Of a stretch of 64,000 nt of DNA, positions 26,371 to 30,144 are shown in pieces (position 1 is the stretch's first letter; every line of letters begins with the position of its first letter). The DNA comes from Rhodopseudomonas infernalis (GTDB lineage: Bacteria; Pseudomonadota; Alphaproteobacteria; Rhizobiales; Xanthobacteraceae): the NCBI RefSeq assembly GCF_022271405.1, contig NZ_JAJNAL010000005.1:1-64000 (forward strand), given 5' to 3'. The position numbers and the translations under genes are program-made. The notes below the pieces were generated by a model. The model had not been told where the DNA came from, ran no database searches, and saw only the letters and a list, made by a program, of their open reading frames with translations.

Positions 26371-26387
26371 GGTTCCGACAGGCGAGC

Positions 26388-26858
26388 TCAGGTCAGCTCG
26401 TCGACCCAGACTTTGGACTTCTCGCAGAACACCTCCACCGCCGAGCCGACGAAGCGCGAGATCACGATGGCGGCGATTATCGGCGCCAGTGCGGCCGGGC
26501 AGCCGATCGCGATCAGCCCCGAAGCCAGCATCACGCCGCCGACGACCTTGCTGGCGCTGAAAGCGTCGATCAGCTTGGCGCGATCGGCGGCGGATGCGGC
26601 ATCGGTGCCGCAGATCAATTGCTGCAGCTCCTTGGCCCAGCGCACCAGCACCGCGCGCCCGAGCGCTTTGACGCCGTCGAGCGGCCCCATCGCTTGCGCG
26701 TCGAAAGTCGGTCGCAGCGCGATGTCCGACTCCAGCGCGGGCTCCTTGGTCACGGCGAATTTCCGGATGCCGAGTTGCTCGATCAGATTGTCCTCGGACG
26801 AGCCGAGCAGGTTGCTGATCTCCGACTGAATCGCTTGCTGGTCCACAGGGGTGGTCAT
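26388..26858 (-). CDS. Small protein with C-terminal hydrophobic hairpin, CHAT-cassette partner
   Basis: I do not recognise this 156-residue protein. Residues 1-60 are polar and acidic, 60-100 helical with basic/hydrophobic faces, and 104-141 strongly hydrophobic with a Gly/Cys/Pro break near 119-121 (AIGCPAALAP). That could make two short membrane helices or one re-entrant hairpin. A short charged tail ends EKSKVWVDELT. AAGGAG is ideally placed before the ATG and overlaps the end of the upstream CHAT gene, only 16 nt away, so the two are co-expressed. It may be a pore- or membrane-acting effector, a substrate or a regulator of the protease; this is inference. Confidence 0.7.
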   Translation of the reverse strand: MTTPVDQQAIQSEISNLLGSSEDNLIEQLGIRKFAVTKEPALESDIALRPTFDAQAMGPLDGVKALGRAVLVRWAKELQQLICGTDAASAADRAKLIDAFSASKVVGGVMLASGLIAIGCPAALAPIIAAIVISRFVGSAVEVFCEKSKVWVDELT

Positions 26859-26874
26859 GGCGCAATCTCCTTCG

Positions 26875-29376
26875 TCAAATGGGAGAGGCTTTCGGAATCA
26901 ATGAACGGGTGGCCTGGCCGTACAAGGTGTAGACGAGGCCGAGCGGGTTGTTCTGGGCAATCAGGGCGTTGCGTGCGTCGAGCAGTGCTTCTCCGACAGT
27001 CGTGCCGTCATGCATCATGGCGGCGATGAAAGATCGACCGAACGCTTCGCCGAGCGCCGGGCTGATCTCGCATTCCGTGCCGATCACCGCGGCCGCCTTC
27101 AGCTTCAGGAACAGCGCCACGAAGCACTCGCTCGCGCCGGGGAACAGCTGCGCCGATTGGCACATGTTCATCAGCAGCACCGGTTGGGAGTGGAATTTGA
27201 GATTGCTGACGAGCGCTGCGAACGGCTGATATTGGATGCTGATGTCGGCGAACTTGATCTCGTGATCGGTCGCGGCGAGGTTCGATCGCAGAAGCTCTCT
27301 CAGGGTGACGATGTAGTCTTTCAGGACTTGCCGCTTCGGCGCCTGCTCGTCACCGAGCAGCGCCAAACTGTTTTCGACGTCCTTGATGATCTGCATCTGT
27401 CGATCGAGGAGGCCCTTGAACACGGGGTCGCCCGGCGCCTGGGTGTGGCCATGACAGAAGAAGCAGTAGAAGTTGATGCGGTCGTCCTGGATCGCGTCGA
27501 TCAACTGGTCGGCACTGGTGATGTCACCAAGGAAGTCGACGCGCGGCTTGGCGATGAATCGGCTCAGGACCGTGCGCAGGTTCTCGGACTCGGCGAACTG
27601 CTTCCACGACAAATAGGTGTAGTCGAGCGCTTGCGATGGCTGCGGCCGTTCGCGATTGGAACGGCGGACCGCTTGTTCGATCTGATAGCGTGCCCCCCAA
27701 AAGCCCGCCCATTGCGCCGGCCGGGCTGCGCCGAGGTCGTCGTCGTAGAGCAGCGCCCACGGAAACACGAAGTCTGAGATCGTTTTGCTCGCGACGATCT
27801 GAATGATGGAGCGGTTCGGCAGCTTCAGTTGCTTCAGATATTTGCCGACGGCGACGAGGGAGTCGTCGGCCGCCGTGTTATTGAACAGCAACCGCCAGGC
27901 GCGGACACCAAGCTTCGCAAGGTCGTCCAGAGCGCTCTGACAGACGCTGCTGTCGCTGGTGGCGGATCCGCCGAAGGATTTCAGGATCAGCCTCGTGTAG
28001 GCGACGCGCACGTCGATCAGCAGTGCGTTGAGATCCTCATGCGAAACGAAGCTGTTTGCCGACAGATAAACGGACAGATCCGTCGTGTCTCCAACGGCGC
28101 GTTTCGCCGGTGAGTCCGGCGTCGAATCCGGTGTCTGGCGGATCGTGAAATCCAGTGTGGTCTGCGTTGCGTCACTGGTGACGGAAATCACCATCGTGCG
28201 GGGAGCGACATCGTCGCCGAGCCAACCGAGCGCGCGCGCGCGATCTTCCTCATCCTCGCGATGGTCGATCATGTGCACGGGCCGCGGCGCGAGCGCCGGC
28301 ATTGGCTCGAGCTCAGTCGGCTGAAATGCCACCACTGTCAGATCGACGTCGATCGAATCGACCAGGTTGAGTCGGTAAAAAATCTGCACCAGCAGCCGGG
28401 CTTTGCAACTCGCACCGGCGCTCTGGAGCTCGCCGTTGATCACCGGCGTGAACGACAGTCGCACCGGGACGCTGGATCCGGACGGCGGCAGTTCCAGCGT
28501 TGCAAACGTCTGATCGACGCGCAGCTCGATGCCGCCAACACTGAGATCCGTCAATTTGATGAGTAGCTCGACCGGTTGCGACATGAGCGGCAAGAAGATG
28601 GGCCGCCGCTGGTGCTCGGCTGGCAGGCCGCCAATCTCCGCAGCTGGCCTGATTGCGATGTCGAGCGACCACTGCTTGTCAAAATAGATCGGACAGTTGG
28701 CATTCCACTCAGTGCCGGAGTCCGGATCGACCAGCCGGATTTCGCTCTGGCGGTCGTCGAATTCGGATCGCTGCTCAACCGGGAAGGCGAGCACGTTGGG
28801 CGGGATCGGGGCTGCGATGAGGTTGCTGCCGAGGTCGGGGATCGGCTCATCGTCGCGTCCGAATTGCACCAAGAGACGATCGCCGTCGAGCGTCAGCGTC
28901 TTGGTCTCGGACGGCCGCCGAAGCCGGGACGGGAGTTTGACAACTTCGCCAGGGCACGCGTCGCGACCGGATCGAACAAGCCGAGTACCTCCGCCAGTTT
29001 CGGACTCGGCCCTCGACGGAATCGTCAATCCAGAGCCGCCTAAATACGGCGATTTTTTTCTGATGGTCCCCGATTTGCGCACGCAGGGATCATGCGCCAG
29101 CTTCGCCTTGGCGGCCGGCTTCGATTTTGCGCGACTGAGCATCAACTCGGCGATCTGCTGGATGGTCGACAGCGGCTCGAGGTCCTTCGCCGAAATGCGA
29201 AGGCCGAGTTGGGAGACCACCGGTAGCCCATTGATGTCGGCGGCGAGATGACGCCAGCCCGTGCGGTTGAAATTGCCGAGGGCTTTGACGTTTGCAGTTG
29301 AGGTGATGCGTTTTTCGGAAAGTCGCGCGAGGAAAAGCGACCGGAGAGCCGAAATCAATGTGCGGAGGTTGCTCAT
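26875..29376 (-). CDS. CHAT-domain caspase-like protease, multidomain
   Basis: This 833-residue protein has a C-terminal CHAT protease (about 440-833). Pieces visible in order are FPWALLYDD (538-546), the catalytic His642 in FYCFFCHGH, the catalytic Cys739 in PVLLMNMCQSAQLF, AAVIGTECEISP (762-773) and GTTVGEALLDARNAL (791-805), then a terminal LVYTLYGQAT. CHAT peptidases are clan CD relatives of caspases and separase. Residues 23-82 form a small helical domain with a DLEPLSTIQQIAELM helix, perhaps an effector-associated adaptor; 150-350 looks like beta-sandwich sensing modules. The gene is followed by a small hydrophobic-protein gene. It interrupts the pleD-rpmG neighbourhood, which suggests acquisition. 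Target and trigger are unknown. Confidence 0.85.
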   Translation of the reverse strand: MSNLRTLISALRSLFLARLSEKRITSTANVKALGNFNRTGWRHLAADINGLPVVSQLGLRISAKDLEPLSTIQQIAELMLSRAKSKPAAKAKLAHDPCVRKSGTIRKKSPYLGGSGLTIPSRAESETGGGTRLVRSGRDACPGEVVKLPSRLRRPSETKTLTLDGDRLLVQFGRDDEPIPDLGSNLIAAPIPPNVLAFPVEQRSEFDDRQSEIRLVDPDSGTEWNANCPIYFDKQWSLDIAIRPAAEIGGLPAEHQRRPIFLPLMSQPVELLIKLTDLSVGGIELRVDQTFATLELPPSGSSVPVRLSFTPVINGELQSAGASCKARLLVQIFYRLNLVDSIDVDLTVVAFQPTELEPMPALAPRPVHMIDHREDEEDRARALGWLGDDVAPRTMVISVTSDATQTTLDFTIRQTPDSTPDSPAKRAVGDTTDLSVYLSANSFVSHEDLNALLIDVRVAYTRLILKSFGGSATSDSSVCQSALDDLAKLGVRAWRLLFNNTAADDSLVAVGKYLKQLKLPNRSIIQIVASKTISDFVFPWALLYDDDLGAARPAQWAGFWGARYQIEQAVRRSNRERPQPSQALDYTYLSWKQFAESENLRTVLSRFIAKPRVDFLGDITSADQLIDAIQDDRINFYCFFCHGHTQAPGDPVFKGLLDRQMQIIKDVENSLALLGDEQAPKRQVLKDYIVTLRELLRSNLAATDHEIKFADISIQYQPFAALVSNLKFHSQPVLLMNMCQSAQLFPGASECFVALFLKLKAAAVIGTECEISPALGEAFGRSFIAAMMHDGTTVGEALLDARNALIAQNNPLGLVYTLYGQATRSLIPKASPI

Positions 29377-29800
29377 GTGAGCGCTCTTGGTACCAAACAG
29401 GTGGGGTAATTGAATCGTTTAAAGGTATGTGAGTATTTGATGTCGCGGGCGACTCTGGTGCCGATCTGAAAAACTATAAAGTACAAAGTCGTCGATTAGT
29501 AATCCTACGATGTAGCACGTCAGCCCGCACTGTTGGGCAACAGGTTCGCAAAGCGAGTGGTGGTGTGTTGGCGAAGGCAAATTTCGCGATCGCTGCACGT
29601 TGAACAGTCCGCTGAGCGGGTTGCTCGTCATTGCGGGCTCAGTTGCGATCGGTGAGTCCGGCGGACGATTTGTCTGATAAAATCAGTTATTGAGTCCGCT
29701 CATATCGTGCCCGGCATCAAAAGCTGACCCGGCGCGGCGCCGGAGCGGTTCTGACCGGATCTCGAGGGGATCGCTGGGCCGCGCTTTGGCGCGGCGCTGC

Positions 29801-29889
29801 GGGCCTCGAAGGATGAGCCGCAAGCACCTTTGGATATGTACCTTGGCCGCATCCTTCGAGGCGCGCTATGCGCGCGGCTCAGGATGACG
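29801..29889. repeat. Intergenic repeat, family C (copy 1)
   Basis: GGGCCTCGAAGGATGAGCCG is inverted against CGCATCCTTCGAGGCGCG, and the element ends GGCTCAGGATGACG. The same sequence pieces occur at 55.0 kb. It lies on the CHAT side of rpmG, near the possible junction of the accessory cassette. Confidence 0.75.
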
Positions 29890-30081
29890 ACTCTGCGCGT
29901 GAGGAGACGGCGCTGCTTGGAGCAGGCAACCAGTCTCAAGCCGCCGGCGTTTGCGGGCTCGGCTTCTGATCTTGCTTTGAAGCAAGGAGGGTTGACTGCG
30001 ATGATGCCCGTTCTTCGCGCTCCGTGACGAACCTGGGCGCGAGACCGGCGGTGTCGATGCTGTTCGATGGCATGATCGCAA

Positions 30082-30103
30082 CAGAAAGGGCCCCGAAGGG
30101 CCC
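30082..30103 (-). terminator. Intrinsic terminator of rpmG
   Basis: GGGCCC-CGAA-GGGCCC (30088-30103) forms a hairpin with a tetraloop; on the minus strand it is followed by TTTCTGTT. It lies 42 nt past the rpmG stop. Confidence 0.75.
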
Positions 30104-30144
30104 CATCTCAAGTTCAGTAAGCTGAAGGCGCAGGTGACGCCGGC

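Follow-up and report, generated by a model that had tools for sequence, protein, structure and literature searches.

The question raised by this locus is whether two neighbouring genes of the window (the whole stretch of 64,000 nucleotides of Rhodopseudomonas infernalis DNA that was analysed) form one functional unit, and what a protease and a small hydrophobic protein might do together. A reading made from the sequence alone had described a CHAT protease gene followed 16 nt later by a small gene, and had regarded the two as a candidate undescribed defence or cell-death module. The open reading frames confirm both genes and the spacing on the minus strand, with GAAGGAG within the gap. The features discussed below are as follows.

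26875..29376, minus strand: CHAT-type protease gene, 833 aa (833 codons); open reading frame, relatives passing Pfam CHAT, Foldseek PDB matches
29122..29376, minus strand: N-terminal domain, residues 1-85, helical, possibly adaptor-like; common to other proteins, pLDDT about 63-85
28327..28764, minus strand: strand-rich region, residues about 205-350, probably a beta-sandwich; predicted strands only, low confidence
26902..28041, minus strand: predicted CHAT domain, residues about 446-825; Pfam on relatives, model, Foldseek, profile and alignment A3
27451..27453, minus strand: codon of the predicted catalytic His642; invariant in 8/8 CHAT rows
27160..27162, minus strand: codon of the predicted catalytic Cys739; invariant in 8/8 CHAT rows, pairs with the Cys of the solved CHAT protein DdvA
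26388..26858, minus strand: small partner gene, 156 aa (156 codons), predicted all-helical; open reading frame, downstream homologue beside 4/4 close CHAT relatives, model
26673..26690, minus strand: MGPLDG, residues 57-62, candidate cleavage or docking segment; invariant in five CHAT-linked small proteins, role putative
26451..26549, minus strand: predicted hydrophobic helical hairpin, residues 104-136; model and hydropathy

The flanking genes, judged by eye, are housekeeping-like, with divK/pleD-like response regulators to one side and, to the other, a transporter and a frame like that of ribosomal protein L33 (rpmG); no known defence neighbour was seen among them. The GC content is 0.60-0.63 in both 2-kb bins holding the cassette; most other bins have 0.63-0.70, and a few are equally low. 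Between the upstream side of the CHAT gene and rpmG, a GC-rich inverted-repeat-like element was noticed by eye at 29780-29900.

The protease and its predicted catalytic dyad

The window protease itself gave no Pfam CHAT match, only a sub-threshold match to Peptidase_C25 (20 bits against a cut-off of 23). Among the three close relatives scanned, the two from Xanthobacter (L021 and L024) passed the Pfam CHAT cut-off, and the Pfam scan of the Ancylobacter protein (L022) returned no match of any kind; the more distant relatives L025, L028 and L029 were likewise above the cut-off. The profile search that had been proposed for the protease thus succeeded on some of its relatives but not on the protein itself. 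Alignment A3 comprises nine rows, five of which match Pfam CHAT at E <= 0.01; eight are CHAT rows, and the ninth (L027) spans the N-terminal domain only. H642 and C739, which had been named as lying in the expected catalytic contexts, are invariant in all eight CHAT rows, where only 15 of the 247 C-terminal columns without gaps are invariant. In the low-confidence AlphaFold model, built from nine sequences and having a mean pLDDT of 50, the predicted strands E636-640 and E733-737 precede the two residues, so that the dyad fits the catalytic positions both in the alignment and at the strand ends.

The structure prediction agreed with this assignment: all 19 PDB matches of the model at E <= 0.001 were separase or Csx29/TPR-CHAT entries, at low TM-scores (0.22-0.28 by query). 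As was found by comparing the A3 profile with solved chains, there was one match, the CHAT protein DdvA (E 0.0064), aligned Cys on Cys, while a single-sequence search of the window protease against solved structures gave noise only. No PADLOC model matched the protease at E <= 1. The alignment and the model thus identify the product of the 833-aa gene as a predicted CHAT-type protease with a conserved dyad.

The N-terminal residues 1-85 of the protease form a separate domain that other proteins share. It also opens a DUF900 alpha/beta hydrolase of genome G216 and a 454-aa protein of G247, which by eye resembles the G216 protein. A further CHAT protein, in G179, is matched weakly (E 0.0026) close to its N-terminal end. 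When the 296 family genomes were searched with the A5 profile of this domain, five matched, namely the window's own, these three and G043; the G043 match (E 0.007) was taken as chance after its frames were read by eye. Its recurrence on DUF900 alpha/beta hydrolases suggests a separate domain acting as an adaptor. According to Kaur et al. 2020 (PMC7159879), small common 'effector-associated' domains bridge the components of systems, and the caspase-superfamily domains of VMAP systems always adjoin an alpha/beta-hydrolase gene. Bridging by the N-terminal domain is only an idea here, because the A5 profile search found no second copy in the window's genome. One Xanthobacter relative carries a HEAT match at its N-terminus instead, weak and below the cut-off (E 0.009), and the N-terminus therefore differs between relatives while the CHAT domain and the partner stay.

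Distribution of the pair and its insertion site

A search with the CHAT protein reached 11 of the 296 family genomes at E <= 0.001, its own included; four of the others are close (E <= 2.8e-32), and six matches are short or partial. The small protein was detected at E <= 0.01 in seven of the same genomes, which are its own, the four with a close CHAT relative and two set aside as chance. In all four close relatives (Ancylobacter crimeensis, Xanthobacter autotrophicus AM5, X. oligotrophicus 29k and one further member of the genus Xanthobacter) the small-gene homologue lies directly downstream of the CHAT gene, and CHAT homologues lacking the small gene, which would have spoken against the pairing, were not encountered among them. 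With the start codons chosen by the analyst, the two genes overlap in all four by 4 nt (ATGA in three, GTGA in one). Identity between groups is about 30% for both proteins, and the pairing is kept across three genera, counting that of the window. The flanks of the three Xanthobacter loci are common pairwise, and these loci may go back to a single ancestral site. The loci of Ancylobacter and the window are sited elsewhere, and there are therefore three clearly distinct contexts, not five.

Across the three Xanthobacter loci, the small gene has dN/dS values of 0.08-0.13 and the protease gene 0.24-0.31; against the window or Ancylobacter, divergence is too great for an informative comparison. Both genes are under purifying selection in Xanthobacter. 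The CHAT/small-gene pairing is real, and a chance adjacency of two unrelated genes, in favour of which nothing was found, is rejected as highly improbable in view of the four paired homologues out of four, the three genera, the identity of about 30% between groups and the differing flanks of the window, Ancylobacter and Xanthobacter loci.

Five more distant CHAT proteins were examined (L025, L026, L028 and L029, by BLAST of their open reading frames, and plasmid ones), and none is accompanied by a small-gene homologue; the pairing is therefore specific to the close clade. Class-wide, 337 genomes gave three with a match to the small family, of which one was the window's own and the other two were set aside. 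A scan of genome contigs with the CHAT protein gave no relative among 33 pattern matches, and that with the small family gave three loci, all from genomes already found. Viral contigs contained no match for the small family, and plasmids none for either of the two small proteins tried, although CHAT relatives do occur on plasmids. The small-protein matches in G200 and G044 and a second one in G130 were rejected as chance, since by eye they run antisense to asd-like and TrpF-like genes, as were those in G581 and G320, which lie inside dehydrogenase- and NADH-dehydrogenase-like frames by eye.

The loci of several CHAT relatives showed further genes. In Ancylobacter the small gene is followed after 21 nt by another CHAT gene (L022:10963-14322; CpXC-CHAT, Pfam CHAT E 1.7e-38), which gives a CHAT-small-CHAT operon. 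In Xanthobacter AM5 (L024:1486-6522) the genes that come after the pair on its strand encode a DUF559 nuclease-like product, a 213-aa protein and a 1075-aa ATPase, the last matching PADLOC Mad8 (E 2.2e-18) and HerA models. On a Microvirga plasmid (L040:200-6859) an alpha/beta hydrolase follows the CHAT relative after 20 nt, and a thiol-activated cytolysin gene (Pfam E 2.5e-28) lies about 1.4 kb upstream. On a Streptomyces plasmid (L042:2297-4671) a CHAT gene is followed after 2 nt by the gene of a hydrophobic protein of 118 aa; the layout is similar, but this partner is not homologous to the small family. A distant CHAT-like protein (L026:9206-11980) has a sub-threshold patatin match (E 7e-5) at its N-terminus and is a possible lipase-protease fusion.

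Within the genus, none of the 15 other members matched the CHAT or the small protein, while the pleD end is kept in all 15. The distance from pleD to rpmG is about 177-237 nt in five members and 484-967 nt in six; in the remaining four, rpmG is not found within 1.5 kb. Two of these four hold about 4.1-4.2 kb of oxidoreductase-like genes, and in the other two, where contig ends were reached, an oxidoreductase-like gene is present too. Comparison of positions 26371-30140 of the window with L081, L082 and L085 likewise pictures the pleD-rpmG interval as variable in the genus, with oxidoreductase-like genes in some relatives and a HigB-like frame recognised by eye. The absence of the cassette from all 15 other members and the variability of this interval indicate that the cassette is an acquired insert at a variable site.

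The small protein and its probable relation to PDC-M35B

The small protein had been described as carrying a hydrophobic hairpin, and hydropathy and structure prediction agree with this. Its model is all-helical (mean pLDDT 84), with hydrophobic stretches at residues 99-117 and 115-133 (19-residue Kyte-Doolittle means 1.53 and 2.55) preceded by an amphipathic helix. C83 and C145 flank the hydrophobic stretch and are invariant also in L087, a PDC-M35B-type protein. The longest invariant run of the family is MGPLDG, matched by 196 of 100000 column shuffles; this conservation is only suggestive, because three of the five sequences are close relatives. Pfam gave no match to the small protein, and the structure search with its model returned only globin-like noise (best E 0.2, TM about 0.2), with no credible relative.

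A link to a listed candidate system emerged from the PADLOC models. PDC-M35B matched the small protein of the window at E 0.0014, and three of its models matched that of Ancylobacter (best 4.8e-5); neither of the two Xanthobacter small proteins scanned was matched. The only PDC-M35B-type gene found, L087 in G105, is matched by two models (1.6e-13 and 1e-12), and no protease frame was seen in the 1.7 kb upstream of it when six frames were read by eye. Its protein is without MGPLDG and has a basic segment ahead of the region common with the small family. Direct comparison of the small family with this protein was weakly positive: hhalign gave E 1.4e-4 and a probability of 53%, and a score of 12.5 bits compared with 10.4 for the best of 2000 shuffles. 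PDLC04594 matched in none of 61 family genomes, not even the window's own, and is hence too insensitive for the small family; PDLC04595 matched in 1 of 199 genomes and PDLC04596 in none of 398 phylum genomes. On these profile comparisons, the small protein is likely to be a distant relative of PDC-M35B.

The protease component of PDC-M35 appears to be of another class. In G252 there were five matches to its PDC-M35A model PDLC04593 at E <= 10; the two strongest fall, over His and Ser motifs, in proteins that look DegP/HtrA-type by eye. The model also matched in 11 of 14 control genomes; since the DegP/HtrA assignment was made by eye, 'trypsin-like' is the analyst's reading and not a PADLOC label. 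PDC-M35 is thus like the cassette in combining a protease and a small protein, the small partners being probably homologous, and unlike it in that PDC-M35A matches trypsin-fold proteins while the protease here is of the predicted CHAT type. Thus a single small family may have partners from two unrelated protease classes, as is the case for gasdermins and gated nucleases. In bacterial gasdermin systems, bGSDM is activated by caspase-like or trypsin-like proteases, both known (PMC9079055); for Canu and the Hachiman/AVAST protease-nuclease pairs, Tuck et al. 2025 (PMC12799240) describe one partner family activated by trypsin- or caspase-type proteases.

The claim that the pairing is undescribed stands in part. 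No literature match was found for the pair: it is not described, by titles and abstract openings, among the matches listed for CHAT with defence, pores or membrane partners, and 'PDC-M35' occurs in no paper of the library searched. The protease matches no PADLOC model, but the small family is probably related to a candidate already listed there.

Possible function of the pair

In outline, a protease adjoining a possibly membrane-active partner resembles the bacterial gasdermin systems. The 156-aa partner, however, is all-helical, with neither a Pfam nor a significant structure match, and no gasdermin fold was recognised, as the sequence-only reading had anticipated. The gated nucleases of the Canu type have an MBL-type pro-nuclease as partner, whereas a small hydrophobic helical protein without Pfam match stands here. 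Craspase (Csx29/TPR-CHAT, Cas7-11 and Csx30), in which Csx29 cuts Csx30 (PMC10028731), shares the CHAT/separase-like protease fold with a His-Cys dyad; the cassette protease lacks a Pfam TPR match, and the two-gene cassette has no Csx30-like or Cas gene, its neighbours being housekeeping-like by eye. The EACC1 two-gene systems (PMC7159879) likewise combine a caspase-superfamily protein with a small conserved membrane component and variable domains. There the EACC1 gene is 5', encoding a single TM with alpha+beta ends, and the caspase domain is N-terminal with a variable C-terminus; in the cassette the small gene lies 3' and has an all-helical product, and CHAT is C-terminal with a variable N-terminus.

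Against this background, the reading that we tentatively favour, while giving it somewhat less than even weight, is a two-gene proteolytic conflict module, in which cleavage of the small partner by the protease releases a fragment active on membranes. A signal, probably of infection, received by its variable N-terminal region would switch on the otherwise inactive CHAT protease. The protease would then act on the small helical protein encoded beside it, most likely through a single cut within or close to MGPLDG. The freed C-terminal fragment, consisting of the amphipathic helix and the hydrophobic hairpin, would insert into the membrane and arrest or kill the cell. Of this scheme, the cleavage and its site, the membrane insertion, the trigger and the defence role are what we infer. 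The module is proposed because of the CHAT assignment, the 4/4 pairing, the dN/dS values, the hairpin with its amphipathic helix, the PDC-M35B link and the precedents of gated effectors. Against it speak L087 without a visible protease upstream, the non-matches of the two Xanthobacter small proteins scanned, the hhalign probability of 53%, the lack, by eye, of a known defence neighbour in the window and the lack of a credible structural relative. The earlier suggestion of a role in conflict is borne out indirectly, by the probable PDC-M35B link, by Mad8/HerA-like and nuclease-like neighbours in one of four relatives and by sporadic occurrence at a variable site. A more specific form, which we regard as doubtful, is a non-gasdermin protease-gated executioner, a helical bundle cut by whichever protease class is paired with it (CHAT at the invariant LD-G, or a trypsin-type protease in the basic PDC-M35B-type linker), the freed amphipathic helix and hairpin permeabilising the membrane and the cleavage motif changing with the protease.

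A serious rival, though on balance a less likely one, casts the small protein as a regulator anchored in the membrane or as an activating subunit, anchoring as EACC1 or activating as CanB might, while the protease cuts other cellular or phage proteins. Kaur et al. (PMC7159879) propose that EACC1, the small membrane protein of a caspase two-gene system, serves as a sensor, and Tuck et al. 2025 (PMC12799240) report that CanB complexes with the caspase CanA; the small gene is also better conserved than the protease in Xanthobacter, as would suit a constant regulatory component. The analogy with EACC1, a 5' gene whose product has one TM helix in that account, is weakened by the 3' position and all-helical product of the small gene here, and a partner shared with a trypsin-type class is less expected of a fold-specific subunit. 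The apparent CHAT/trypsin-type exchange, seen in weak profile matches, therefore favours a substrate over a fold-specific activator.

Proteolysis might instead serve signalling and not death, the cut small protein freeing a regulator, as the cutting of Csx30 by Csx29 frees an ECF sigma factor (PMC10028731). That precedent, and the best sequence match among solved structures, DdvA, described as a CHAT-bearing transmembrane anti-sigma factor, point this way, but the pair includes no regulator gene and the downstream genes vary among relatives, which leaves signalling improbable. The reverse logic, resembling a toxin-antitoxin pair, is about as improbable: the small protein would be a constitutive membrane toxin degraded by the protease and released when infection blocks expression or the protease. 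Tight two-gene coupling and a sporadic insert would suit it, but a multidomain protease of 830-1230 aa with variable N-termini is unlike a labile antitoxin.

Returning to the proteolytic conflict module, the pair is rare, and the protease with its small hydrophobic helical protein probably serves as a switch for cell death or phage defence, with the small partner as either the target of the protease or the means by which it acts. If the small protein is the substrate, it would represent a further family of protease-gated executioners beside gasdermins and gated nucleases, one whose partner protease is exchangeable between catalytic classes. If this is true, the swapping of proteases in immunity modules, and a possible change of the cleavage motif with the protease, would become directly testable.
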